DNA from: a virus
IMG/VR virus record: IMGVR_UViG_3300036850_000032
Coordinates: 1-61,243 of that record
DNA length: 61,243 bases
Reading direction: 5' to 3' (one strand)
The position numbers and the translations under genes were made by a program. The notes below the pieces were generated by a model. That model was not told the origin of the DNA. It did not search any database and worked only from the letters and a program-made list of their open reading frames with translations. Each line of letters begins with the position of its first letter. Position 1 is the first letter of the stretch. Shown here piece by piece: positions 8,748 to 24,623 of this stretch.

Positions 8748-9126
8748 CAGTGTCCAACTGAATCTGCCGCCAACGGCAGTAAACAGAGTTGGCGCAACGA
8801 CGCCAACTGCTGCCAACTCAGATAGTGCAACGGTCGATCTCGCGTCCGTCGTGCTGTCGGCCGGCGATCGCCTCGGGCTGGCGGACAAGGATCTGGCTGG
8901 CATTTTCGATTTGTCGGCGCCGGACTTCTCCAGTGCGTTTTCTCCACATCGTCTTGATCGCAATCGGCTGATGAAGATCAAGTTGCCGGACACATTGGCC
9001 CGCGAAGTGGCGCGCGTAATGGGTGAGCGCACGGGGTTGGTGATCGGCGGACCTGATGCTGAGCGTCATGCGGTGGCGGATCTGATGGTGGCAGCGGCTG
9101 GCTATCTGCGTGTGGTGCAACGATGA
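8740..9126 (+). CDS. Possible CII-like early regulator
   Basis: 128 residues. The N-terminal ~35 are Thr/Ala/Asn-rich. Residues ~45-100 form a compact helical region (AGDRLGLADKDLAGIFDLS, then KLPDTLAREVARVMGERTGL) that could be a helix-turn-helix. Position two genes after Cro matches lambda cII, but the similarity is only positional and structural guesswork. It overlaps its neighbours on both sides. Confidence 0.45.
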   Translation: MGSSVQLNLPPTAVNRVGATTPTAANSDSATVDLASVVLSAGDRLGLADKDLAGIFDLSAPDFSSAFSPHRLDRNRLMKIKLPDTLAREVARVMGERTGLVIGGPDAERHAVADLMVAAAGYLRVVQR

Positions 9127-10121
9127 AGATCCCGATCGCCTCCATCGCCTTCGATGCAGGAACGCAGATCCGCGAAGCGATCAACGAAGCCGTGGTGGCT
9201 GAGTACGCCGAGCGAATGACCGAAGGCGTCATCTTCCCGCCTGTGGTGCTATTCCACGACGGCAACCAGTACTACATGGCGGACGGGTTCCATCGCGCGC
9301 TCGCCGCGAAGCGGAACGACTTCGGCGACATCGACGCGGACGTGCAGCCTGGCACGAAGACCGATGCGCTGTGGTTCGCGCTCGGGGCGAACAAGGCCAA
9401 CGGACAGCGCCTCACGATCGCCGACAAGAAACACGCGGTCATGTTGGCCTTGCAGACGTGGCCGGATAAGAGCGCCGGCCAAATTGGTGAGCAGGTCGGC
9501 TGCAGTCATTCGTATGTCTCGGCTATCAGAAACGAGGTTTCCATGACTGGAAACCCGGAACACGTGACCGGCAAGGACGGTTCGACGTATCCGGCGTCCA
9601 AGAGTGCTCGCGAGCGGCGTCGTGAAACAGTCGCGAGTCTCTTAGTGCAGGGACAAAGCGTGGCCGAGGTGCGGGCCGCGACTGGCGTCGGTCGTGACGT
9701 GATCTCCGAAGTCAGGCGCGATCTGGGCCTCAGTGGTGTGCCCACGACAAAGGACGCCATCGCGCGACGCCTTGATCGGATGCGAACGATGGCGGCTGAA
9801 GGCTACAGCTCGCGTCAGATTGCCGCCGAAGTCGAATTGTCTGACGACAGATGCCGCGAGCTCCTCCGCCGAGAGGGGATTGACGTACCGGCCGATGCCG
9901 TCATTGGGAAGACGAAGCGCCACGATGCCACCCGCATCATCGAGCGCATCGTGGCCGATGCGGAAAACCTCACCGAAGGCGTGACGCTCATTGACTTCGC
10001 GGACGTGGACCGCGCACAGCTTCCGGCTTGGCTGAAGTCTTTGCAGGATTCACGCGACAAACTCGGCACGTTCATCCGTCGATTGATGAAGGAGCGACAG
10101 AATCATGGCGAAGCAGCCTAG
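9123..10121 (+). CDS. ParB/sulfiredoxin-fold protein with HTH domains
   Basis: 332 residues. The N-terminal ~90 residues are a ParB/Srx-type domain with MADGFHRALAAKR (residues ~52-64) in place of the ParB GERRxRA box. Then comes a ParB-like HTH region (IGEQVGCSHSYVSAIRNE, ~125-142), followed by two further HTH-like segments (VAEVRAATGVGRDVI and SSRQIAAEVELSDD). No partner ParA is seen, so a regulatory or DNA-processing role is more likely than partition. Confidence 0.7.
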   Translation: MKIPIASIAFDAGTQIREAINEAVVAEYAERMTEGVIFPPVVLFHDGNQYYMADGFHRALAAKRNDFGDIDADVQPGTKTDALWFALGANKANGQRLTIADKKHAVMLALQTWPDKSAGQIGEQVGCSHSYVSAIRNEVSMTGNPEHVTGKDGSTYPASKSARERRRETVASLLVQGQSVAEVRAATGVGRDVISEVRRDLGLSGVPTTKDAIARRLDRMRTMAAEGYSSRQIAAEVELSDDRCRELLRREGIDVPADAVIGKTKRHDATRIIERIVADAENLTEGVTLIDFADVDRAQLPAWLKSLQDSRDKLGTFIRRLMKERQNHGEAA

Positions 10122-10917
10122 TCGGAAGCCGTCGAAGATCAAGCCTGTGCCGATCGGCCAGATGCGCATTCCGCCCGCGCTGGTCACGCAGCGCGAGTTC
10201 CGCAAGGCCCACGGCGATCGGATCGCGGCCGAACTGGATCTCAACAAGCTTGGGTATCCGATCATCAACCATCGCGACGGCAACTACTGGGTGGTGGATG
10301 GTCAACACCGGGTCTACGCGCTGAAACAGAACGGGTTCGAGAAGGACGTGTTGGACTGCGAAGTCTACGAGGACATGTCCGACTCGGAGATGGCGGAAAT
10401 CTTTCTCGGCCGCGATGCGCGCAAGCCCATTCCGCTCTACGACAAGTTCCACGTGGCGATCACGGCTGGGCGACGCCGCGAGCGGGATATTCAACGCGCC
10501 GTGGAAGCGAACGGCCAGAAGATTAGTCGCGATCAGAGCGATGGCGGCATCAGCGCGGTTGGTGCGCTGGGGACCGTCTACGACCGGAACGGTGAGGTGG
10601 TCCTCGGGCAAGTCATTCGCACCATCAATCTCGGGTTCGGTGGGGATCCGGTGGCCTTTGATCGGGCTGTGATTGAAGGGCTCGGCCTGGTGTTCAACCG
10701 CTACAACGGCCGCACGAACGAAAAACAGCTGGGGGCGAAGCTGTCGGATCTTCGGCATGGCGCGCGCGAATTGCTACGCAAGGCGGAGGCCATCCGTGAG
10801 CGCACCGGCAATCAGAAAAAGCAGTGCATCGCGGCGGCGGTCGTGGACATCTACAACAAGGGCCTCGGCCCGCGAGACTCGCATCGTCTGCCGTCGTGGT
10901 GGAAAGAAGCTGAGTAG
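10105..10917 (+). CDS. DUF6551-type ParB-like protein
   Basis: 270 residues. The ParB/Srx signature is WVVDGQHRVYALKQNG (residues ~63-78). The long helical C-terminal half has no second known domain. It overlaps the preceding ParB-like gene by 17 bases. Two unlike members of the same superfamily side by side suggest distinct roles, such as ATP-dependent switch or nuclease-like activities known for this fold. Confidence 0.65.
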   Translation: MAKQPSRKPSKIKPVPIGQMRIPPALVTQREFRKAHGDRIAAELDLNKLGYPIINHRDGNYWVVDGQHRVYALKQNGFEKDVLDCEVYEDMSDSEMAEIFLGRDARKPIPLYDKFHVAITAGRRRERDIQRAVEANGQKISRDQSDGGISAVGALGTVYDRNGEVVLGQVIRTINLGFGGDPVAFDRAVIEGLGLVFNRYNGRTNEKQLGAKLSDLRHGARELLRKAEAIRERTGNQKKQCIAAAVVDIYNKGLGPRDSHRLPSWWKEAE

Positions 10918-12384: not shown

Positions 12385-12692
12385 TGGCCCTCGCCCACAC
12401 CGATCGCACCGTCGATAACTACACCGACCTGCTAGCGAAGTCAGCCGTACCGACGCATCTCCAAGCGGGACTCGTTCGGTACTTCGTCGGGCACATCGCG
12501 CCCGGCTCGTTCGTGCTGGCAATCCTCCAGAACGATCTCGCGGGCGCCACGAAGGCCGCAGCGGACGAAGAGACGCGGGACGCCATCATCCCGATCGTGG
12601 ATTGGCTCTACCGGGAAGCTCCGCCGGATTCGTGGGGCAGCATCGCCCGCGTGCGTGTGTGGCTTCAACACCGAAAGGATGGCACCTCATGA
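12384..12692 (+). CDS. Hypothetical protein before the recombination pair
   Basis: 102 residues, helical, starting at a TGATG overlap. Contains NYTDLLAKSAVPTHLQAGLV and a C-terminal WLQHRK. It resembles short proteins that precede ssDNA-annealing genes in other phages only by position. Confidence 0.5.
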   Translation: MALAHTDRTVDNYTDLLAKSAVPTHLQAGLVRYFVGHIAPGSFVLAILQNDLAGATKAAADEETRDAIIPIVDWLYREAPPDSWGSIARVRVWLQHRKDGTS

Positions 12693-13510
12693 GCGCCAAG
12701 CAAGGGGCTGTCCTCCCGATGGACGAATCGCCCGTGACCGAGACCGTGACGCTGCAACATGCTACACCGCTCAGCGATGCAACCGGATTGGCGCTCGTGG
12801 TCGAACGGCTCGCCGCGAACCCAGACGTTGACGTGCTCAAGCTCGAAAAGATCATCGAGCTCCAGGAGCGGCTGCTGGCGAGTCAGGCCAAGGCCGCGTT
12901 TGATGCAGCCTTCGCCCTCATGCAGCCGGAGATCCCCGAGATCGACGAGAAGGGACGGCTGATCAATCACAAGACGGACACGCTCCAGAGTATGTACGCG
13001 AAGAACGAGGACATCCAGAAGGTGCTCCGTCCGATTCTGGCGCGGCACGGGTTCTCGCTCAGCTTCCGAACCGAGTGGCTTGACGAGCGGACGGTGGTCG
13101 TATTCGGCATCCTCTCACACCGAGACGGGCACTCGCGTGAATCCACGTTCCGGTCGAAGGCCGACGACAGCGGCAACAAGAACGCGATTCAGGCGCTCGG
13201 CTCGACCATCTCGTACGGCCATCGCTACACCACAACCGACCTCCTGAATATCACCAGCCGCGAACCAGGCAGGGGCGCGGACGATGACGGCGCGAGCAGC
13301 GAGAAATACAAGCAGCCCGCCGCCCCTGAAGGCTACGACGCATGGTGGGCCGTGCTGGAAGGGCTCGCCAAAGACGGCTTCGCGCCGCTGTCGTCCGCGT
13401 GGAACAAGTCCAAGCAGGAGTTCTGCACCTACAACGCGAAGTATGAGAAACACAAATGGGACGCCCTGAAGAATGCCGCGCTCACGGTAGACAAGGCGGC
13501 GAAGAAATGA
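12689..13510 (+). CDS. erf: ERF-family single-strand annealing protein
   Basis: 273 residues. Residues ~45-190 form the ERF core, with the diagnostic GSTISYGHRYTTTDLLNI near residue 170 and LRPILARHGFSLSF before it. The C-terminal ~75 residues are polar and Lys-rich. ERF proteins anneal complementary single strands in phage recombination. A YqaJ/lambda-exonuclease relative follows immediately, giving a Red-like pair. Confidence 0.85.
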   Translation: MSAKQGAVLPMDESPVTETVTLQHATPLSDATGLALVVERLAANPDVDVLKLEKIIELQERLLASQAKAAFDAAFALMQPEIPEIDEKGRLINHKTDTLQSMYAKNEDIQKVLRPILARHGFSLSFRTEWLDERTVVVFGILSHRDGHSRESTFRSKADDSGNKNAIQALGSTISYGHRYTTTDLLNITSREPGRGADDDGASSEKYKQPAAPEGYDAWWAVLEGLAKDGFAPLSSAWNKSKQEFCTYNAKYEKHKWDALKNAALTVDKAAKK

Positions 13511-14160
13511 CCTTCATCGAACACGACGTGCCGCAACGATCCGACGCGTGGCGGATGCTCCGGCTTGGCCGCCTGACGGGTTCGCGGGCGCATCACATCC
13601 TCGCCAAAGGCAAAGGGAGCGATGAAGCGGTCGGCCGTCGCAACCTTCGACTGCAGCTCACTCTCGAACGGCTGACGCAGCGTCCGCAGGAGAGCGATTA
13701 CATCAGCCCCGCGATGCAGGCCGGGATTGACCGGGAAGCGGACGCCTTCGCTTGCTATGAGGCGTTCACGCGGAACGTGGCCCTGCGCGCGGGGTTCCTC
13801 GCGCACACCAGCCTGATGGCCGGCTGCAGTCTCGACGGCCACATCGGGAACTTTCAGAAACTCCTGTCGATCAAGTGCCGTCAACCGGCGGCGCATCTCG
13901 AGTTTCTCCGCACCGGGAAGATCCCGGCTGATGCCTTCGCGCAAATTCTGCACGAGTTGTGGCTGACCGGCGCGCAAGAACACGACTATTTCTCGTGGAA
14001 TCCAGATTTCCCAGACGCGCTGCAGTCCAAGGTAGTCACGCTCAAGCGCGTCGAGGCAGACATCGAGGCCTACGGCGCGGCGGCGCGGACGTTTCTGTCC
14101 GAGGTAGACAAGGAAGTCTCGGCCCTCGCTGCGCTCGCAGCAGAAAGCGCGGTGGCGTAA
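13507..14160 (+). CDS. YqaJ/lambda-exonuclease-family recombinase nuclease (substituted active-site Glu)
   Basis: 217 residues. Family landmarks are in order: RLTGSRAHHIL near the N terminus, AGIDREADAFACYEAF (Glu), CSLDGHIG (catalytic Asp), LLSIKC (catalytic Lys) and a C-terminal Q-x-x-HELWLTG motif. In most relatives the IKC box is preceded by Glu (EIKC); here that position is Ser. The domain order is otherwise normal. It is the expected 5'-3' exonuclease partner of ERF, but activity is uncertain. Confidence 0.75.
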   Translation: MTFIEHDVPQRSDAWRMLRLGRLTGSRAHHILAKGKGSDEAVGRRNLRLQLTLERLTQRPQESDYISPAMQAGIDREADAFACYEAFTRNVALRAGFLAHTSLMAGCSLDGHIGNFQKLLSIKCRQPAAHLEFLRTGKIPADAFAQILHELWLTGAQEHDYFSWNPDFPDALQSKVVTLKRVEADIEAYGAAARTFLSEVDKEVSALAALAAESAVA

Positions 14161-16185: not shown

Positions 16186-16445
16186 ATCGTTGGCGCGTCA
16201 AGGCGTCCCGCACGACACCGACGTGGTATCACGCCTGCGAAGTGTCGTTCGTTGACGCAGCCGACGCGCACGAGGCGAAGGCACTGATCGAAGGGCGCAG
16301 CGAACCCGGTAACCAGTTCCGTGCCTGGGCGATCACGCCGGCCACGCCGGAGATGGAAGCGGCGCATCAGGCTTGGCTCGATCGGTGCGCGCGATGGATT
16401 GTTGCCGCGAGGACAGCCTCTGCGCATCGGGGGATCATCCCGTGA
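16182..16445 (+). CDS. Small hypothetical protein
   Basis: 87 residues. The start is an ATGA overlap. Alternating strands and an Ala-rich helix (VDAADAHEAKALIEGRSEPG) recall small domains that follow phage nucleases. No assigned family. Confidence 0.5.
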   Translation: MNRWRVKASRTTPTWYHACEVSFVDAADAHEAKALIEGRSEPGNQFRAWAITPATPEMEAAHQAWLDRCARWIVAARTASAHRGIIP

Positions 16446-17068
16446 TTGTGCTGGTGTCTGGCGCGAGCCGGTATCCGCGGAGCGAGGAGGTCGGACACCT
16501 CATCATGCCGCGACAAGGGAACCGTGCCGATGCGCTCGACCTGCAGCCTGGCCGATGGGCGATGGATAACGGCGCGTTTGGCGGCGGGTTCGATCCGGGG
16601 TCGTTCGTAGACATGTTGCAGGACTTCTACGGTTTCCCTGGGTGTTTGTTCGTGACAGCACCAGACGTGATTTACAAGAGCGGCATCGGAAACGCAGCTG
16701 AGACGCGCAAACGGTGGCCGTTCTGGTCGCGCCTGATTCGCGGGCTTGGGTTTCCGCCGGCGTTTGTGGCACAGGACGGGCTCCAGTTGCATCAGGTGCC
16801 GTGGGATGAAATGGGCGCGCTCTTTATCGGCGGGAGCACCGAATACAAGGAAGGCCGAGACGCGCAGAATTTGTGCTCCTACGCCAAGGCGATCGGGATC
16901 TGGGTGCATTGGGGCCGCGTCAACGGACGCACGCGCTACACGAAAGCCAAAGAGCGCGGCGCGGACTCGATCGACGGCACAGGGTTCTCGATCGCACCGG
17001 ACATCAACATCCCACTTGTAGCCGAGTGGGAGCGTGATCGAGTAGCGCAACCTGGGCTCGCGCTATGA
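16442..17068 (+). CDS. DpdA-like 7-deazaguanine DNA transglycosylase (TGT superfamily)
   Basis: 208 residues from the GTG overlapping the previous TGA. Landmarks shared with short phage DpdA/queuine-transglycosylase-like proteins: MDNGAF (41-46), FVTAPDV (70-76), VAQDGL (109-114), FIGGSTEYK (128-136), HWGRVN (156-161) and DSIDGT (175-180). This is a TIM-barrel with substrate-binding Asp/Gln-Asp motifs. Family members swap guanine in DNA for a 7-deazaguanine such as preQ0, protecting phage DNA from restriction. No preQ0 synthesis genes are seen, so the host would have to supply the base. Some members may modify tRNA instead. Confidence 0.7.
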   Translation: MIVLVSGASRYPRSEEVGHLIMPRQGNRADALDLQPGRWAMDNGAFGGGFDPGSFVDMLQDFYGFPGCLFVTAPDVIYKSGIGNAAETRKRWPFWSRLIRGLGFPPAFVAQDGLQLHQVPWDEMGALFIGGSTEYKEGRDAQNLCSYAKAIGIWVHWGRVNGRTRYTKAKERGADSIDGTGFSIAPDINIPLVAEWERDRVAQPGLAL

Positions 17069-17196
17069 CCACGTTTGTGCTCGTCTGCGGCTGTCGCGCG
17101 GTGCCCTCGGGACATCCCGCAGGACGGTGGCGGCAACAGGGTGTTGTCGGGGAAGTGGGATCTTCCCGCGAGCACAATTCAGAACGACGACGATGA
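17065..17196 (+). CDS. Tiny Cys-containing ORF
   Basis: 43 residues starting at an ATGA overlap with the DpdA-like gene. Contains VLVCGCRAVPSGHPAGRW and a basic tail. No family is recognised. The second copy of the duplicated micro-ORF follows its stop in the same frame. Confidence 0.4.
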   Translation: MTTFVLVCGCRAVPSGHPAGRWRQQGVVGEVGSSREHNSERRR

Positions 17197-17204
17197 GGGG
17201 TAGC

Positions 17205-17277
17205 GACCGTCACCGATGTGTCCTACCCAGTGACACAGAGCCTGAGTCATCTTGGAGCGAACGGAGTCACCGAATGA
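17205..17277 (+). repeat. Duplicated ~73-base element, copy 2
   Basis: About three quarters of the bases match 15476-15548, including CACAGAGCC and GCGAACGGA-like blocks. The reading frame ends in TGA overlapping the next ATG (ATGA), as in copy 1. There is no good start upstream except GTG at 17218. The two copies lie 1.7 kb apart in the same operon. Confidence 0.6.
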
Positions 17278-17960
17278 CGATCGGTACAAAGAGTGTTCTC
17301 TACGGCGCGCACTGTTTCTTCCTGCATCCGTGGTTCGTCGCTGCGGCATGGTGGCAGCTGTACGGCTTCCCGTGGGACCCGCGCCTCTGGGTCGCGTTCT
17401 TCGTGCATGACCTCGGCTACATCGGGAAGCCGAACATGGACGGGCCGGAGGGCGAGACGCATCCGCTGCTCGGCGCTCGGATCATGGGTCGGCTGTTCGA
17501 TCGACTTCGAAACGGCGGACGCCCCATTCGCGGCGTTCCACAGGATCTCTCTCAGTGGTTCGTCATAAGGGACGGCGAGTGGCTGGGTCGCTGGGCTCGA
17601 TTCTCCCTGCTGCATTCCCGGTACTACGCGAAGACGCTCGGCCTGCAACCGTCGCGACTCTGCATCGCTGACAAGCTCGCGATTGCGCTGACGCCGGCGT
17701 GGCTCTACCTGCCGATGGTGCGCGCGACCGGAGAGATCCACGAGTACATGGCGCACGCGCACTATCGATCGAAGGGCAACGAAGCCCTGAGCGCCGACGA
17801 ACGTGCGCGTGTCACCTCCGGGCGTGAGCGCGATTGGTATACAGGCGTGCAGTCGTACTGCCGGCGCTGGGCGACGGAACACGCCGACGGCAAGCGCGAC
17901 ACCTGGACGTCCGATGCTCGACAGCGAGCAAAGGTCAACTCGGACGGCGTTTGGAAGTAA
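17274..17960 (+). CDS. HD-like predicted metal-dependent phosphohydrolase
   Basis: 228 residues. FVHDLGYIGKPNMDGPEGE gives an HD pair near residues 44-45. THPLLGA, HSRYYAK and IADKLAIAL add further His/Asp residues in the order expected for an HD fold. Large hydrophobic residues near the N terminus are part of the fold rather than a clear membrane segment. It could hydrolyse nucleotides, which would suit a genome with modified bases, but the substrate is unknown. Confidence 0.5.
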   Translation: MTIGTKSVLYGAHCFFLHPWFVAAAWWQLYGFPWDPRLWVAFFVHDLGYIGKPNMDGPEGETHPLLGARIMGRLFDRLRNGGRPIRGVPQDLSQWFVIRDGEWLGRWARFSLLHSRYYAKTLGLQPSRLCIADKLAIALTPAWLYLPMVRATGEIHEYMAHAHYRSKGNEALSADERARVTSGRERDWYTGVQSYCRRWATEHADGKRDTWTSDARQRAKVNSDGVWK

Positions 17961-17983
17961 GCGAAGAAAGTCAGCAAAAATGA

Positions 17984-18014
17984 TTGATTCGCAGGCGGAC
18001 ACGAGTGGTAGAAT
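17984..18014 (+). promoter_or_regulatory. Candidate promoter for the replication operon
   Basis: TTGATT (17984-17989), a 19-base spacer and TAGAAT (18009-18014). The spacer is long, but both boxes are near consensus. It lies in the only sizeable gap (17961-18087) of the early operon. The stretch CACGAGT just before the -10 recalls the elements at 28312 and 31487. Confidence 0.45.
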
Positions 18015-18025
18015 CGGAGCGAGTC

Positions 18026-18059
18026 GAGGCCGACAGGGTTGTGACCCCCTGCCGACCTC
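18026..18059 (+). promoter_or_regulatory. Leader stem-loop
   Basis: Arms of 13 bases (GAGGCCGACAGGG and CCCTGCCGACCTC) pair at 11 positions around a 7-base loop. No T tract follows, so it is probably a 5'-leader hairpin of the transcript that starts near 18020, not a terminator. Confidence 0.45.
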
Positions 18060-18087
18060 TAACCAGCACGCAGTAGGAGCTGCGCAC

Positions 18088-18423
18088 ATGGCTGAGAATC
18101 AATCTAGTCTACCCCAATCCCGACAATCTAGCCCCGCTGAATTTTCGCCTGCGAGCCGCTATGCCGTAGGTCGCCAGCCCTGCGCGAACTTCACGCCGAA
18201 GGACGAACTGTTCCCCGGCAGCGGCAACGTCCACGAGTGCCTTGCACCGTTCGGCGCTCCGATTGAGGAGCGATGCGCCGTGACGCGCGGGGGCCTCGTG
18301 TCGTTCTGCACCAACTGTAATCGTGATCACCATCAGGACGGATACGAGAACTGCGACGGTTACTGGTCGAGGCCGTTGCGACCCATCGCGAAACCCGAAG
18401 CTAAGCCCAAGGTGCGCCGATGA
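18088..18423 (+). CDS. Cys/His-rich hypothetical protein
   Basis: 111 residues from an ATG with a good AGGAG site about ten bases upstream. The first 35 residues are Ser/Gln/Pro-rich. The rest has Cys and His in pairs (VHECLAPFG, CTNCNRDHHQDGYENC), probably zinc-binding. It is the first gene after the internal promoter. Confidence 0.55.
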   Translation: MAENQSSLPQSRQSSPAEFSPASRYAVGRQPCANFTPKDELFPGSGNVHECLAPFGAPIEERCAVTRGGLVSFCTNCNRDHHQDGYENCDGYWSRPLRPIAKPEAKPKVRR

Positions 18424-18467
18424 GCGCCACCCCTCGCCCGTGGACAACCGAGGGTCGCGAACCATGA
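18420..18467 (+). CDS. Micro-ORF of 15 codons (doubtful)
   Basis: MSATPRPWTTEGREP, with its start and stop each overlapping a neighbouring gene (ATGA at both ends). The coupling alone supports it. It may serve only to carry ribosomes to the next gene. Confidence 0.25.
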   Translation: MSATPRPWTTEGREP

Positions 18468-18664
18468 CCTTACAACGCATCTTGCGCGTGACGCAATCGC
18501 CCATGAACGCCGAGCGATGGTGCTTTGACTTGGTGTGCGGCCACGAGGCGTGGGTCACCAGTAAGCGGCGACCACAGACGATGCGGACGTGGCGCAATAG
18601 TGAGGGCGAGAAAATGATCAGCCCGCGCTCAATGCCGTGCCCGAAGTGCAAGAGTGAACCATGA
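18464..18664 (+). CDS. Small zinc-binding protein
   Basis: 66 residues with CGHEAW near the middle and CPKC at the C terminus, consistent with one zinc site. It overlaps the initiator gene by four bases. Confidence 0.5.
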   Translation: MTLQRILRVTQSPMNAERWCFDLVCGHEAWVTSKRRPQTMRTWRNSEGEKMISPRSMPCPKCKSEP

Positions 18665-19452
18665 CCTGGGTCAAGTTCGACGACGGCTTCCCTGAGCACC
18701 CCAAGGTACTCGGCCTGTCCGATACCGCGTTCAGTCTCCACGTCCGTGCGATCTGCTACGCCGCCCGCAACCTGACCGATGGAATCATTCCCCGCGTCTG
18801 GCTCAAGGGCGCGAAGGCCGCGATCCTCCTAGCCGTCCAGCAGCTGATCGAAGCCCGACTGTGGACCGAACACCCAGACGGATGGGAAGTGCATGACTAC
18901 CTCCAGTACCAGCCGAGCCGCGCGAAAGTCGAACAGCAGCGCGAGCAAAACAATACGCGCGTGAAACGGCACCGTAACGCATTACAGCCGCGAGACTGTA
19001 ATGGTAGTGAAACAACACCCCGTCCCGTCCCGTCCCGTCCCGAAGATCCAATCAACAGATCGGATCTTACGGGCGCTCTACCGGTAACACCGCCTGCGCG
19101 CGCGACTTCCGCCGCCGGCATGTCACCACTCGCATGGGGAAATAAGCACTCCGATCATATAAGCGGTTTCTGTGATTGGATGTGTTTTCCTTCGGATTTG
19201 GCTGGGCAATTTGCATCACGGTTCAATCCGAGCGATCCGGACGCTGGGCTAGTGGATGTGCGCGACTGGGCCAAGTCTGTCCGGCGCTCGTGGGAAGAAA
19301 GCGGACGGGTTCCTGCCGGCACGAAGTGGTACGACTGGTGGAACGACCGCTGGACTGAGGCGCACGGCGACGGAAAACCCGTCACGGATGGCGCGGCCGG
19401 CAAGCAACGGCGGACGCGTGAAGCCCTCACCCGCTTCGTGGAGCACGGCTGA
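18661..19452 (+). CDS. O-like phage replication initiator
   Basis: 263 residues. The N-terminal ~100 residues form a winged-helix module typical of phage replication organisers: WVKFDDGFPEHPKVLGLS, then ARNLTDGIIPRVWLKGAK. A Pro/Arg/Ser linker (~110-165) follows, then a C-terminal domain rich in Trp (KWYDWWNDRW). The linker is encoded by a pentamer repeat and is followed by an AT-rich stretch, the arrangement of a lambda-type origin inside the initiator gene. The next gene is a loader-like candidate. Confidence 0.7.
   Translation: MTWVKFDDGFPEHPKVLGLSDTAFSLHVRAICYAARNLTDGIIPRVWLKGAKAAILLAVQQLIEARLWTEHPDGWEVHDYLQYQPSRAKVEQQREQNNTRVKRHRNALQPRDCNGSETTPRPVPSRPEDPINRSDLTGALPVTPPARATSAAGMSPLAWGNKHSDHISGFCDWMCFPSDLAGQFASRFNPSDPDAGLVDVRDWAKSVRRSWEESGRVPAGTKWYDWWNDRWTEAHGDGKPVTDGAAGKQRRTREALTRFVEHG
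19017..19210. other. Candidate replication origin inside the initiator gene
   Basis: Four tandem CGTCC-type pentamers (19017-19041) are followed by a GATCC/GGATC inverted repeat. Then comes the most AT-rich part of the gene, around 19136-19210 (CATATAAGC and GTGTTTTCC blocks). Iterons plus an adjacent AT-rich segment within an O-like gene match the lambda layout. No binding evidence exists. Confidence 0.35.
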
Positions 19453-19943
19453 TGGAACAACTTAAGAGCATCGCGGATCGTGTCCTGGCGGGACATGTGG
19501 AGCCGCGCCCGAGCACGTCACGGGAAGCCCGCCAGCAGTTTGCGAAGGCGCTCGATCACCTCGCTGCGGCCTACCGTCACGAGATGGTTGATGAGGCCGT
19601 GGCGGTCTACTGGCACGCGCTGAAAGACATCCCGCTTGAGATTCGCGCGGAAGGGATGAGCCGGTGCGCGGCCACGTTGAAGTTTTTTCCGACCGTGGCC
19701 GAGCTCCGGACAGCCTGCTGTGACGTGGTCGATGAGCGGCGGAAGCGCGCGGCCGTGACCGCGAAGGTGATTCAGGAAGGGTGCCTGGTGTGCCTCGGGA
19801 CGGGCTGGCAGAACGTCACCGTCAACGGCGAACTGAAGGCGGCGCGCTGCGATTGCTTCAAGCGTGCGCTCAAGTTGGTGCAGGACGCAGGGCAGGCGAT
19901 TCAACGGCCAGCCCTCGTGGAGCATCAGGAAGATCCGCTGTGA
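19452..19943 (+). CDS. Replication accessory / helicase-loader-like protein
   Basis: 163 residues. The N-terminal half is helical, with YWHALKDIPLEIRAEGMSR and KFFPTVAELRTACCD, like the small domain of lambda P or DnaI-type loaders. The C-terminal half has CLVCLGTGW and CDCFKRA, a zinc knuckle. No ATPase motif is present, so it would be an accessory and not an AAA+ loader. It overlaps the initiator stop by one base. Confidence 0.5.
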   Translation: MEQLKSIADRVLAGHVEPRPSTSREARQQFAKALDHLAAAYRHEMVDEAVAVYWHALKDIPLEIRAEGMSRCAATLKFFPTVAELRTACCDVVDERRKRAAVTAKVIQEGCLVCLGTGWQNVTVNGELKAARCDCFKRALKLVQDAGQAIQRPALVEHQEDPL

Positions 19944-19971
19944 TTCTCGATCAGCGAAGGGCAGGGAGCGA

Positions 19972-20184
19972 ATGACTCAACGCGAAGAAGGCTTGCTATG
20001 TGCTGCGAGGCAAGCCCGTCGCCGAGCGGAGGAATACCGCGAGTTCGGCAACAAGAAAAACCGCAGACGCATCGGAAGCGGCGATTGGCAGTTCAAGATC
20101 GCTGAGGAGTTAGACAATCTCGCGGCTTGGTGTGAGTGCGAAGCGAATACCTACACGGGCGCGAGTCTGGTGGTGATGCCATGA
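19972..20184 (+). CDS. Small charged hypothetical protein
   Basis: 70 residues from an ATG preceded by GGGAGCGA. Basic helix (ARQARRRAEEYREFG). An 11-codon GTG micro-ORF (19940-19975) overlaps its start and the previous stop and may act as a coupling leader. Ends at an ATGA-type overlap with the next gene. Confidence 0.45.
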   Translation: MTQREEGLLCAARQARRRAEEYREFGNKKNRRRIGSGDWQFKIAEELDNLAAWCECEANTYTGASLVVMP

Positions 20185-20381
20185 AACCCGGTGACACCTC
20201 GCATGCCGCGATGGTCCGTTTGACGGACACCGAGTATGCCGAATTGCAGCGCTTGAAAGATCACTATCGGATCTCGCAACCCCGGGTGATGCGCATGGCC
20301 TTGTCGAAGTTGGCACGGAGATCCCGAGTCCTGGGCGATCGTGGGAGCTGGATAGGTACGAACGAGGGGCCGAGCAAATGA
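20181..20381 (+). CDS. Ribbon-helix-helix-like small DNA-binding protein
   Basis: 66 residues. AMVRLTDTEYAELQRLKDHY then ISQPRVMRMALSKLARR fits a strand-helix-helix pattern. Located between replication and methyltransferase genes, a local repressor role is plausible. Start and stop overlap neighbours. Confidence 0.55.
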   Translation: MKPGDTSHAAMVRLTDTEYAELQRLKDHYRISQPRVMRMALSKLARRSRVLGDRGSWIGTNEGPSK

Positions 20382-20917
20382 CTGAACCACGACAGAAGCC
20401 GGGCCGCTCGAAGCAGAACTACGTGACCCCGGACAACTTCATCAACGCGGTAAAAGCGCGACTCGGTATCACGCGGTTCGCGCATGACTTCGCGGCCGAC
20501 GCGACTAACCGGAAGGCGTTGACGCACTTTGATGAGGAAACCGACGCGCTGAGCGTGCCTCGATGGGAACTGTCGTTGGAACTAGGTGGCTGTCCCGTGA
20601 GTGGTCAGAACTGGGGCTGGTTGAATCCTCCATTCTCCAACATCGGCCCGTGGGCGAAGCGCTGCCGTGAGACAAGGAACGCCGGCGGATCGATCGCGTT
20701 CCTCGTGCCGGCCGCCGTGGGATCGAACTGGTTCCGTGATCACGTGGACGGACACGCGCTCGTGTTGTTGTTGAACGGTCGCATTCACTTCATGCCGGAT
20801 CGGCCGAATTGGGGCTATCCGAAGGACTGCATTCTGGCGCTGTTTTCGCCGCTGATTGCGCCTGGATACGAAGTCTGGACGTGGAAGAACACTGCCAAGC
20901 GGAGGACAGCCGCATGA
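20378..20917 (+). CDS. Phage DNA N6-adenine methyltransferase (Dam family)
   Basis: 179 residues. NWGWLNPPFSNIGPWAKRC holds the catalytic NPPF at ~83-86. The N-terminal YVTPDNFINAV and FAHDFAADATNRK match the compact phage Dam family (PF05869-type), which lacks a separate target-recognition domain. It would methylate adenine in phage DNA, giving protection from host restriction or timing signals. It begins at an ATGA overlap. Confidence 0.85.
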   Translation: MTEPRQKPGRSKQNYVTPDNFINAVKARLGITRFAHDFAADATNRKALTHFDEETDALSVPRWELSLELGGCPVSGQNWGWLNPPFSNIGPWAKRCRETRNAGGSIAFLVPAAVGSNWFRDHVDGHALVLLLNGRIHFMPDRPNWGYPKDCILALFSPLIAPGYEVWTWKNTAKRRTAA

Positions 20918-21207
20918 CAAACGATCAGCACGCAGCCATCTTAGACGCCCTCGCCCGCGATGAACGCGCGGATCAGGACGCCTCCGAAGACGACGCGCCT
21001 GAGTATGCGGCCGAGTGTGGGGAGAAAGCCGCCGCCTGCGAGGCTGGAGCTGCCGCCCTCAGGCGAGGGACGTGCCTCTGGACAGAGGATTCCTCGGGTG
21101 AGTACTGGACAAGCGAATGCGGCCAGACGTGGACCTTTTCGAACGATGGATCGCCCAGCGAGAACGGCATGACGTTCTGTTTTGGCTGCGGGAAGGAACT
21201 GGCATGA
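20914..21207 (+). CDS. Hypothetical protein with C-terminal zinc knuckle
   Basis: 97 residues. An acidic N-terminal half (ADQDASEDDAPEYAAECGEK) and a C-terminal half with SECGQTW and FCFGCGKEL, a common phage zinc-ribbon ending. Coupled to the methyltransferase and the DUF1064 gene. Confidence 0.55.
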   Translation: MTNDQHAAILDALARDERADQDASEDDAPEYAAECGEKAAACEAGAAALRRGTCLWTEDSSGEYWTSECGQTWTFSNDGSPSENGMTFCFGCGKELA

Positions 21208-21554
21208 GCCGTCCTCGCTCCGGCCATCACAAGTATGGGGCGGTCGCCACGACGGTTGACGGCATCCGATTCGCCAGCAAGAAGGAGAGCCTGCGCTACC
21301 TTGAATTGAAGCTGCTGGAGAAGGCCGGGGAGATTAAAGGGCTCGTGCTACAGATGCCGTATGACCTCCACGCATTCGGGGCGACATCGCCGCGCGACAA
21401 GCTGCTGGGGCGCTACATCGCTGACTTCTCCTACGTCAACACGCGCACGGGGCGTCATGTCGTGGAAGACGTGAAAGGCTTCAGGACGCCCCTGTATCGC
21501 TGGAAAAAGAAGCATGTCGAGGCTCAGTATGGCATCGAAATCGTCGAAATCTGA
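21204..21554 (+). CDS. DUF1064-family nuclease-like protein
   Basis: 116 residues, typical length. RFASKKESLRYLELKLLEK, then YIADFSY and HVVEDVKG, give the Glu-Asp-(E/D)VK arrangement of a PD-(D/E)xK fold. Members accompany phage replication and recombination genes and may process branched DNA. It starts at an ATGA overlap with the preceding gene. Confidence 0.75.
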   Translation: MSRPRSGHHKYGAVATTVDGIRFASKKESLRYLELKLLEKAGEIKGLVLQMPYDLHAFGATSPRDKLLGRYIADFSYVNTRTGRHVVEDVKGFRTPLYRWKKKHVEAQYGIEIVEI

Positions 21555-21590
21555 AGCGGGCGCCAGGGCCTTGGCAGAGGAGTTGATCGG

Positions 21591-22175
21591 ATGACGCCGT
21601 TGGCGTTTTCAGCGTACTTGGTGACTTGTGAGACTACCGGCAAACGGTACATCGGTATCACGTCCGGAGATGTCGCACGACGTTGGAAGGACCACATTTA
21701 CTACTCTCGTCGCCGAAGGTCGCGAGCCTCAGCCCTTTCTGATGCCATCAGGAAGTACGGCCCAGAAGTGTTCTCTGTGTTGGAGGTCTGCGCGGCTCGG
21801 TCGCTCCAGGATGCCGTTGCGGTTGAGCGCATTCTCATTCAGCAATTCGGCACGTTCGCTCCTGTCGGTTACAACCTCACGCTCGGCGGTGAAGGGCGAT
21901 TTGGCTACAGGCCATCGCCTGAATCAGTAGAGCAGAGCGCAGCGAAGCACCGTGGGCGTCCATGCCATCCAAATACTCGGTTAGCTGGAAGGCGCACGCA
22001 TTTAGGGAAACAGAAGACGCTCCCGCATCGGGAGCGGATCGCCGCTGCAAAGAGAGGCGTTCATCGAAGCGAGGCGACCAAGGCGAAACTGCGTGCGTAT
22101 TGGGCCGCGCGTCGTGACCGAAACGAGTTCACGACATCACAGCCCTACGAACACCACGCCCGGAGAACTGCATGA
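21591..22175 (+). CDS. GIY-YIG homing endonuclease-like protein
   Basis: 194 residues. The GIY-YIG core is AYLVTCETTGKRYIGITSG (Tyr near 9 and YIG near 20-22), followed by Arg in ARRWKDH and Glu in VERILIQQFG. The C-terminal ~80 residues are basic, with NUMOD3-like repeats (ERIAAAKRGVHRSEATKAK) that bind DNA. It is inserted between the DUF1064 and cytosine methyltransferase genes and overlaps the latter by four bases. Confidence 0.75.
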   Translation: MTPLAFSAYLVTCETTGKRYIGITSGDVARRWKDHIYYSRRRRSRASALSDAIRKYGPEVFSVLEVCAARSLQDAVAVERILIQQFGTFAPVGYNLTLGGEGRFGYRPSPESVEQSAAKHRGRPCHPNTRLAGRRTHLGKQKTLPHRERIAAAKRGVHRSEATKAKLRAYWAARRDRNEFTTSQPYEHHARRTA

Positions 22176-23011
22176 AACCACTGGCGGTGGATTTGTGCGC
22201 GGGCCTTGGCGGCTGGACAGATGGGCTACTCGCAGAAGGATGGGATGTCGTCGGGTTTGATATTGAACGCCATCAGTACGGAGATGCGCACTATCCGGCC
22301 CAACTGGTGCTGCAGGACATCCGCACGATCGACGGTCGGCAATTCCTTGGAAAAGTTTCGCTCATCGTGGCTTCGCCCCCCTGTCAAAAGTACTCGTACA
22401 TGGCGATGCCGTGGACTCGCGCGAAAGACTTGGCGCGCTGGTATCGAGATCCAGAACACCCGGAGCGCATCGTTGAATTGAATGAGCTATTTGACACCTG
22501 CTTCCGCATTGCAAGAGAGGCCAACTGTCCAATCGTCCTCGAGAACGTGCGTGGAGCTCAACCTTGGGTTGGCCGGGCACGCTGGATGTACGGATCGTTC
22601 TACCTCTGGGGCGATGTGCCGGCACTGATGCCGATCACGCGGAAACACGTCAAGGTGCCGACGATGGGCGCTGGCTGGTATCCGCCCGACCACCCGAAAC
22701 ACGTTCGCGGCCTTGCCTTCAACGGGCACGCCGATAGAAACCTGCGCGCCACGAAGAACGAAGGCGGCTCGTGGTTCGCCATCGCGCACAACACCACGAG
22801 CGGACACGGGCAGAATCCAGACGGGCGGAAAGCGCCAAGCGGAACGCAATGGTTCAATGACGGGCCGCGCACGCCCGATAGCCTCGCCAGCATGGGCGGC
22901 AAATCGACCGCCCGCAAGGCCGCCTCCGCACACATCGCGAAGATTCCGTTGGCACTCGCCAGACACATCGCCCGCGCCTGGTATCCGGTATGCGAGGCTC
23001 ATGCCGGCTGA
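22172..23011 (+). CDS. DNA cytosine-5 methyltransferase-like protein
   Basis: 279 residues. Motif I is VDLCAGLGGWTDGLLAEGW (residues 6-24), motif IV SPPCQKYSY with Cys71, and motif VI VLENVRG at ~122-128. The region between is somewhat short for a full target-recognition domain, so specificity may be unusual. It probably methylates cytosine in phage DNA. It starts at an ATGA overlap with the GIY-YIG gene. Confidence 0.8.
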   Translation: MKPLAVDLCAGLGGWTDGLLAEGWDVVGFDIERHQYGDAHYPAQLVLQDIRTIDGRQFLGKVSLIVASPPCQKYSYMAMPWTRAKDLARWYRDPEHPERIVELNELFDTCFRIAREANCPIVLENVRGAQPWVGRARWMYGSFYLWGDVPALMPITRKHVKVPTMGAGWYPPDHPKHVRGLAFNGHADRNLRATKNEGGSWFAIAHNTTSGHGQNPDGRKAPSGTQWFNDGPRTPDSLASMGGKSTARKAASAHIAKIPLALARHIARAWYPVCEAHAG

Positions 23012-23189: not shown

Positions 23190-24623
23190 ATGACGACGAA
23201 GGACGACGATCTGGAATCCTGCGGAGACACCGAAGTCCCTGAGGCCGATGCGGAGGCGTTACAACTCTCTTCGCTGATTGAACGGATCGCGCGCGAGCGC
23301 GATAGAGCTCGGCGTCGTGCCAGCGAATTTAGAGCCCAAAACGAGCCCACGCACGCGTTCGGATGCGATTCTATTGCCGTCGTGCTGTCGGCCATTCTTG
23401 CCGATGCTGAATCAGCGAAGGCTCTCCAATCCGCCTCCGTGGCGGTGAATCAGAGCCGGGAGACTGTCACGACCCCAAGTCTTCCGCCGTCTTCTCCTCT
23501 CGCCCTACAGGCGGTCCCCGGTGACTCGTGGGCAGGCGTCGAGTTGATTGCGCGCGAGCGTCAGCGACAGATCGCCGTCGAAGGCTGGACTCCGGAACAC
23601 GATGACAGCCAAGAAGGCGCCGAGTTGTTGCAGGCGGCGGTCTGGTACCTCGACAACGGTGCCGAGTATGACTTCGGGCTGAGTGTGCCGCCGTGGCCGT
23701 GGGAGCGATCGGCATGGAAGCCGAGCGACGATCGCGTGGATCAACTCGCGAAGGCTGGCGCGCTCATTGCCGCCGAGATCGATCGCATTCAACGGCGGGA
23801 CACCCCCACAGGAGGATCAGATGAACCGCACACAAGCCCGGAAACGGAAGTCGCGGGCACGACCGAACGGGCAGAGGCATCCCACGAAATCGCTCCGCTG
23901 GTGCCGGCGGTGCCGGAAGTGGATCCCCGAGGACGAGTGGTGACGTGCCCTCGCCGATGCTCGGTGACGACGGATCGAAATGTGTGCGCGGCGGAATCAG
24001 GGCTGAGCATTACCGTGTGCTGCTGCGACTGCCACGCGGTATCGTCCTCATCCCCTGTGACGGCCGAGACGTTGATCAAGCGGCTGCGTGCCAACGCTGA
24101 ATTGCTGGAGCAAGCCTACCCGAACCTTGTTGAAGAAGCCGCAGACGCCCTCGCCTCCCTCACCCACGAGCGCCAGGAGGCCGAGACGCAGCACAAGGCG
24201 ACGCTCATCGGCTACGAGCAGGAAGCGGATCGCCTGACGGCTGAGGCTCTCGCCCTCCGTCAGCAACTCGCCGAGCGTGACGCGCAGATCGACCGGCTGT
24301 TGGCGAGGGTTGCGGGTGCTGAGCACTGCTACCGCGAGACTGCCGATCGCCTGGATACCCTCCAAGCCGAACAGTGTCGATTCTTCAACGCGAGAGAAGA
24401 CGAGTCTATTGCCGAGGCCGCTACAAGACGGTTTATGGAAGTCTCAAAGACGACTCGCGCAACCGCCATCGCCCACACGATCGATCAGGTGCTCCAGATC
24501 GTGCGGAAGCGGCACATCCCCGGTCATTCAGTTGTCACCCCGGTACTGCACACGATCGAGCAGGAAGTCGCCGCCCTCCGTCCCCAGACAGGAGAGACGA
24601 CGAACGAGAAGGACAAGGGGTGA
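23190..24623 (+). CDS. Composite protein: phage WTPEHDD domain plus coiled coil
   Basis: 477 residues. Residues ~115-200 carry a domain frequent in phages: GVELIARERQRQIAVEGWTP, EHDD, then VPPWPWERS and KAGALIAAEIDRIQR. After a low-complexity linker (~205-250), the second half starts with CPRRC and CCCDC zinc-like clusters and continues as a long coiled coil (~290-420). The linker contains a separate ORF in another frame with a strong Shine-Dalgarno. A GTG at 23940 could start the second half independently, so this may be two genes whose frames happen to join. Confidence 0.6.
   Translation: MTTKDDDLESCGDTEVPEADAEALQLSSLIERIARERDRARRRASEFRAQNEPTHAFGCDSIAVVLSAILADAESAKALQSASVAVNQSRETVTTPSLPPSSPLALQAVPGDSWAGVELIARERQRQIAVEGWTPEHDDSQEGAELLQAAVWYLDNGAEYDFGLSVPPWPWERSAWKPSDDRVDQLAKAGALIAAEIDRIQRRDTPTGGSDEPHTSPETEVAGTTERAEASHEIAPLVPAVPEVDPRGRVVTCPRRCSVTTDRNVCAAESGLSITVCCCDCHAVSSSSPVTAETLIKRLRANAELLEQAYPNLVEEAADALASLTHERQEAETQHKATLIGYEQEADRLTAEALALRQQLAERDAQIDRLLARVAGAEHCYRETADRLDTLQAEQCRFFNAREDESIAEAATRRFMEVSKTTRATAIAHTIDQVLQIVRKRHIPGHSVVTPVLHTIEQEVAALRPQTGETTNEKDKG
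23821..23943 (+). CDS. Nested small basic zinc-type gene with strong Shine-Dalgarno
   Basis: 40 residues in another frame of the composite gene. A perfect AGGAGG (23810-23815) lies the right distance before the ATG. The peptide is very basic (MNRTQARKRKSRARPNGQ) and has WCRRCRKWIPEDEW at the end, a CxxC-type pattern. Its TGA overlaps a GTG at 23940 that begins the second half of the surrounding ORF. Together these favour a real overlapping gene. Confidence 0.55.
   Translation: MNRTQARKRKSRARPNGQRHPTKSLRWCRRCRKWIPEDEW

Follow-up and report, generated by a model that had tools for sequence, protein, structure and literature searches.

Three genes for base modification enzymes in one viral genome

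The IMG/VR virus record IMGVR_UViG_3300036850_000032 is a stretch of 61,243 bases with a G+C content of ~63%; the whole of it was analysed and is called the window here. An initial annotation had proposed that a guanine transglycosylase resembling DpdA, a Dam-type adenine methyltransferase and a protein resembling cytosine-5 methyltransferases are encoded inside 6.6 kb. Indeed, all three open reading frames (ORFs) are present on the plus strand, downstream of the recombination genes and ahead of the terminase genes, and each was assigned to its proposed family. They are referred to by their start positions:

16442..17068, plus strand: small DpdA-like protein of the tRNA-guanine transglycosylase (TGT) superfamily, 208 amino acids, GTG start (PHROG 15826, 8.8e-42; fold, profile and motifs)
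20378..20917, plus strand: Dam-type DNA N6-adenine methyltransferase with an NPPF motif (PF05869, 54.4 bits against a cutoff of 28.1, 1.6e-14)
22172..23011, plus strand: short C5-cytosine DNA methyltransferase-like protein, 279 amino acids (PF00145, 31.6 bits against a cutoff of 22)

The 16442 protein is a predicted member of the TGT/DpdA superfamily

PHROG 15826 has no functional name attached. Membership in the TGT/DpdA superfamily had been named beforehand as the test for the 16442 protein, and fold matches, profile comparison and invariant motifs place the predicted protein inside it. An AlphaFold (AF2) model built from 12 sequences had a predicted local distance difference test (pLDDT) score of 82.6 and a predicted template modelling (pTM) score of 0.83. 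When this model was compared with the PDB by using Foldseek, ranks 1 to 7 were all TGTs, and the viral models matched included several named queuine tRNA-ribosyltransferases, among them the large DpdA of Sonali (gp87). The TGT-type (beta/alpha)8 fold was thus found in the predicted structure, at the level of fold only (TM ~0.45). Comparison by hhalign of a profile of the 131-member family with a profile of the 9g and CAjan DpdA proteins gave an E value of 2.6e-7, whereas the reversed-profile control gave 0.13. The family profile also matched gp38 of MED16 (E value, 2.8e-7), the DpdA of a phage in whose DNA dADG has been measured (PMC8306585).

The residues expected of a TGT are conserved as well. 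D75, Q111, G131, K136, H156, R159 and D178 are invariant across the 131 relatives, and so is D42 save for one gapped sequence. The pocket and catalytic residues of Zymomonas mobilis Tgt (D102, D156, Q203, G229/230 and D280) are matched by D42, D75, Q111, G130-131 and D178, respectively. The motifs follow the order of Escherichia coli Tgt, with D178 aligned to its nucleophile D264 ("GADSIDG" versus "GIDMFDC"), and H156 corresponds in the alignment to His196, the conserved histidine of 9g DpdA. K136, R159, N161 and R165 are invariant residues specific to the small family. If the two-aspartate mechanism of TGTs applies, D178 would be the nucleophile and D42 the second catalytic aspartate, with D75, Q111 and G130-G131 holding the base.

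Several observations weigh against this assignment. The 16442 protein has no match in Pfam or NCBIfam, searches with the single sequence and with Pfam miss TGT, and a search of the PDB sequences with either the single query or the profile returned nothing meaningful. The comparison with a profile of bacterial TGTs alone was weak (0.033). Since the TM-scores to TGTs are modest and other TIM barrels follow at similar E values, the fold by itself would not decide membership. Furthermore, no biochemical test or published function was found for any member of the small subfamily, actinophage relatives included.

The 208-amino-acid protein has neither the TGT zinc site (CxCxxC...H) nor a match to PF01702 and so does not qualify as a tRNA-guanine TGT in the strict sense. 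PF01702 was dropped as a marker for DpdA because it is uninformative: it also misses the large DpdA proteins of Sonali and SHIN8, and its absence from the 16442 protein is therefore no argument against DpdA. An identity with DpdA2, which lacks the conserved His (9g His196) (PMC6884629), was considered and rejected. Because the zinc site is missing, the His is retained as H156 and the family profile has no match in phage nt-1, the sequences define a minimal, zinc-site-free DpdA-like subfamily that is predicted to be distinct from both DpdA2 and the tRNA TGTs. PADLOC assigned no defence family to the protein.

Spread of the small DpdA-like family

A profile scan of viral contigs yielded at least 544 confirmed members of the family. 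Among bacteria and archaea, 84,980 genomes yielded 42 loci, many of them actinobacterial (Nonomuraea and Nocardia) and some in Paenibacillus. Relatives in actinophages are annotated as "DpdA-like tRNA-guanine transglycosylase." Near several actinobacterial copies (loci L087, L092, L098, L099 and L103; Nonomuraea and relatives), ORFs for ArdC-N, DUF3560-methyltransferase and C5-methyltransferase proteins were present, an association seen in a comparison without a control set. The chromosomal copies look like anti-restriction cargo of mobile elements.

Sonali, R29Z and SHIN8 (L015, L017 and L022) carry QueC and annotated genes of the preQ0 pathway, and each encodes a large DpdA in addition to the small protein. 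In R29Z and SHIN8, the small gene lies immediately ahead of the DNA polymerase gene, and in Escherichia phage SHIN8 (L022:7657-8303) the small protein is divided between two ORFs that overlap and are read in different frames. Near the DpdA-like gene, ORFs that resemble ATP pyrophosphatases of the PAPS-reductase/QueC type recur in two groups (L021, L075, L083, L091, L097 and L106; L098, L099, L103 and L105); neither group reached a Pfam family. In ReqiPine5, an annotated PAPS reductase adjoins the DpdA-like gene.

The two methyltransferases

The 20378 protein scored 53.4 bits against the equivalog model TIGR01712, below the cutoff of 97.05. Together with the PF05869 match and the NPPF motif, its sequence is that of a putative orphan Dam-type enzyme, which would act as an N6-adenine methyltransferase.

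The PF00145 match of the 22172 protein spans residues 6 to 128 only, that is, the N-terminal half. This half contains motif I, the nucleophile motif SPPCQ (IV) and ENV (VI), and its fold matched the catalytic domains of HaeIII and DNMT1. Thirty viral relatives were found, and PCQ and ENV are invariant in the 21 viral relatives compared. The C-terminal half is short and has no recognisable motif X (GNxV); a conserved RKxASAxIAxIP stands in its place. Two observations speak against a C5-methyltransferase: the C-terminal half was poorly modelled (low pLDDT), and the score is below the TIGR00675 cutoff. By its motifs and predicted fold, the protein is most plainly read as a C5-cytosine methyltransferase, and it would act as a short orphan enzyme.

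Two other roles for this protein were weighed. If it were a CmoX-type cytosine carboxymethyltransferase using carboxy-S-adenosylmethionine, the SPPC motif, a component of the CmoX signature (PMC12783734), and the replacement of the region around the motif X Asn would be accounted for. However, an equivalent of Arg350 (an Arg at the position of Asn304) is not established in the protein, SpCmoX is absent from the PDB matches of its profile, and CmoA was found neither in the window nor in the records of 19 relatives, although a CmoA of the host could take its place. We therefore regard this role as extremely improbable. Hardly credible is a restriction-modification pair formed with the product of the GIY-YIG gene directly upstream. 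GIY-YIG restriction enzymes exist, and the two genes adjoin with an overlap of 4 nucleotides, but the GIY-YIG protein matches models of homing endonucleases and in none of the relatives does a GIY-YIG gene adjoin the C5 gene.

The early-type gene block

In addition to the three modification genes, the block contains the following features:

12602..14160, plus strand: Erf-like annealing protein and YqaJ exonuclease, the recombination pair heading the block (family matches)
17127..17960, plus strand: HD-motif-like protein (HDLGY), start uncertain, directly after the DpdA-like gene (sequence motif)
18661..19452, plus strand: replication initiation protein (phrog_2447, 2.1e-30)
21117..21554, plus strand: RusA-like Holliday junction resolvase (DUF1064; family matches)
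21591..22175, plus strand: GIY-YIG homing endonuclease, not a cognate restriction enzyme (TIGR01453, 56.2 bits against a cutoff of 56.05; phrog_314, 1e-29; PADLOC HEase)

A terminase, a portal, the head-closure protein Hc3 and podovirus-type proteins for DNA ejection are encoded in the window, and an integrase gene lies on the minus strand. From these genes together with Erf/YqaJ and the replication initiation protein, the window, of soil type, was identified as a temperate, podovirus-like phage.

About 10 further ORFs, including those for the replication initiation protein, the RusA-like resolvase and the GIY-YIG endonuclease, are interspersed among the three modification genes. Overlaps of 4 nucleotides occur at several junctions, including the starts of all three: 16442 begins with a GTG inside a GTGA that also holds the stop codon of the preceding ORF, and GGGGG lies 9 to 13 nucleotides before this start; at 20378 and 22172, the start codon and the preceding stop codon share an ATGA. 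The three had been described as part of one early operon. The common strand and the short gaps or overlaps make a single operon plausible from the sequence, but since promoter- and terminator-like sites in the block were no more frequent than in shuffled sequence, it is not established. "Early" likewise is inferred, from the neighbouring Erf, YqaJ and replication initiation genes ahead of TerS/TerL. A megablast search of positions 14 to 24 kb of the window against phages gave no match, and a search of Rfam for a group I intron gave none either.

Other ORFs were noted in passing. The HD-motif-like protein had no family match in the family-library searches, and its relatives within the phage collection (47% identical) are from uncultured spring-water phages only. 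Residues ~110 to 210 of the long ORF at 23190-24623 match a domain common to at least nine unnamed PHROGs; by eye, this ORF resembles DUF550/MazG-type proteins, with no match in Pfam. Two successive ParB-like genes (phrog_1033) lie at 9123-10917, upstream of the recombination genes.

Linkage of the three genes in other phages

The three genes had further been proposed to form a joint system modifying G, A and C. We compared 25 carriers of the DpdA-like gene with 25 control contigs picked by terminase (TerL), with records of ~20 to 52 kb. PF00145 was found in 5 of the 25 carriers and 7 of the 25 controls; for PF05869 the counts were one and zero. None of the neighbourhoods of relatives had a gene order in common with the window. 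Near actinobacterial loci, C5 methyltransferase and DpdA-like genes had seemed to be associated (10 and 6 loci), but the viral contigs, when compared with the TerL controls, did not confirm this. A single co-evolved system jointly modifying the three bases is thus very improbable: the three genes do share one strand inside 6.6 kb, and Erythrobacter phage ZS04 (65 kb) likewise carries all three families, but its copies are scattered over ~27 kb, no relative has the same gene order, and neither methyltransferase family is enriched in carriers over controls.

Nor did the combination prove to be unusual for a genome of this size, as had been suggested. Besides ZS04, GreaseLightnin (48 kb) carries a DpdA-like gene and two DNA methylase genes inside 3.4 kb, and in MED16 (46 kb) the genes for Dam (gp32) and DpdA (gp38) are 2.6 kb apart. 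Both m6dA and dADG have been measured in MED16 DNA (PMC8306585). Because comparable sets occur in these phages, the trio is a meeting of individually known genes in a genome of unexceptional size.

Restriction pressure

In the window, six-base palindromes occur less often than expected, with an observed/expected ratio of 0.70, compared with 1.005 (standard deviation, 0.019) for random non-palindromes. GGGCCC and GTGCAC were each found 0 times versus 12 expected, and GACGTC was found 2 times versus 24 expected. This depletion suggests restriction pressure. Palindrome avoidance was also considered as a sign of protection but was rejected: the ratio is 0.74 in both CAjan and 9g, two phages with proven modified G, and since their depletion is similar, the statistic does not discriminate protection and is uninformative on this point.

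Supply of preQ0 and the role of the small DpdA-like protein

No QueC (PF06508) was found in the window; FolE, QueD and QueE were not searched for separately. Outside the window, QueC was present in 7 of 71 carrier records of the small family. Since the window has no QueC, any modification of G must draw on preQ0 that the host would have to supply. The scan of bacterial and archaeal genomes found members of the family but not this phage. The published precedents for a singleton DpdA, by analogy, point both ways: Orion, with DpdA alone and a preQ0-less host, had no 7-deazaguanine in its DNA (PMC6884629), whereas MED16 and Salmonella phage 7-11, also with DpdA alone, contained dADG (PMC8306585).

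We are therefore inclined to favour, with modest confidence, three independent anti-restriction genes gathered in the early/recombination block over one co-evolved machine. The 16442 protein would exchange guanines of the phage DNA for a host-supplied 7-deazaguanine, either preQ0 or one of its derivatives, and the 20378 and 22172 proteins would methylate adenine and cytosine. Each modifier would block different host restriction enzymes, and the effects would be additive. The analysis shows the presence of the genes, their families, the conserved motifs, the predicted fold, the missing QueC and the absence of a conserved linkage, whereas we infer the activities and substrates, DNA as the target and the protection; the G-specific modifier, which depends on host preQ0, is the least certain of the three.

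The DpdA-like gene could be silent in practice, with only the two methyltransferases acting, if the host, too, lacked preQ0. The missing QueC and the case of Orion fit this idea, but the catalytic residues are fully constrained in the 131 relatives, so members must be active somewhere, and the dADG of MED16 and 7-11 again argues the other way; we consider a silent gene unlikely. Quite unlikely, in our estimate, is that the small family does a job other than inserting preQ0 into DNA, such as RNA modification, removal of 7-deazaguanine or action on the deazaguanylated proteins of QueC-family defence (Cap9 and QatC). Protein deazaguanylation in defence has been reported (PMC13329287), the family has its own invariant residues K136, R159, N161 and R165, ~90% of the carriers are without QueC, and since a separate large DpdA is encoded alongside it in Sonali, R29Z and SHIN8, the small protein need not be the inserter. 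However, the coexistence would be explained equally well by a further inserting paralogue that prefers other sequences, and there is no match in PADLOC. A broader proposal, in which the small DpdA-like enzymes are minimal transglycosylases with a role of their own, be it a second base-exchange specificity, removal of a mark or anti-defence against deazaguanine-based immunity, is likewise rather doubtful. If true, the family would use host deazaguanines for this role, in hundreds of phages and also in anti-restriction islands of actinobacteria, and would work alongside a large DpdA in phages with a preQ0 pathway.

If, as we favour, three independent modifiers are active, a phage of ordinary size would mark three of the four bases with simple orphan enzymes and would be a test case for the additivity of protections. 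The trio is ordinary; the minimal DpdA-like family, which is widespread among viral contigs and mostly lacks a preQ0 supply of its own, is the less-explored component and the larger question.

Comparison with known systems

The phage lies outside groups 1 and 2 of Hutinet, which have a phage preQ0/dG+ pathway, as judged by the absence of QueC. The DpdA proteins of 9g, CAjan and the Rosebush group, which have been linked experimentally to dG+ and dPreQ0, share with the window protein the superfamily, the order of motifs and the equivalent of His196 (H156). In contrast, the window protein is ~100 residues shorter, has its own K136 and R159 and is not accompanied by a phage preQ0 pathway, for which QueC was tested. 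DpdA2 of Vibrio phage nt-1 is likewise a divergent phage relative of TGT, but it has lost the His that the small family keeps, and nt-1 has no match to the family profile. In ZS04, the member of the DpdA-like family is annotated as DarB-like and occurs together with PF05869 and PF00145 matches, with the genes scattered, unlike those of the window. Pantoea phage MED16 resembles the window in that genes for A and G modification lie close together in a phage with a small genome that has no preQ0 pathway; no C5 methyltransferase is reported for it, and its DpdA belongs to the longer DpdA/TGT_1 cluster. The small actinophage proteins of PHROG 15826 (Sonali gp81, GreaseLightnin gp55 and Aoka gp40) differ from the window copy by the latter's five-residue insert after PDV, common in the alignment only to L002, and are otherwise of equal length, ~38 to 43% identical over nearly the full length, and carry the same invariant motifs.

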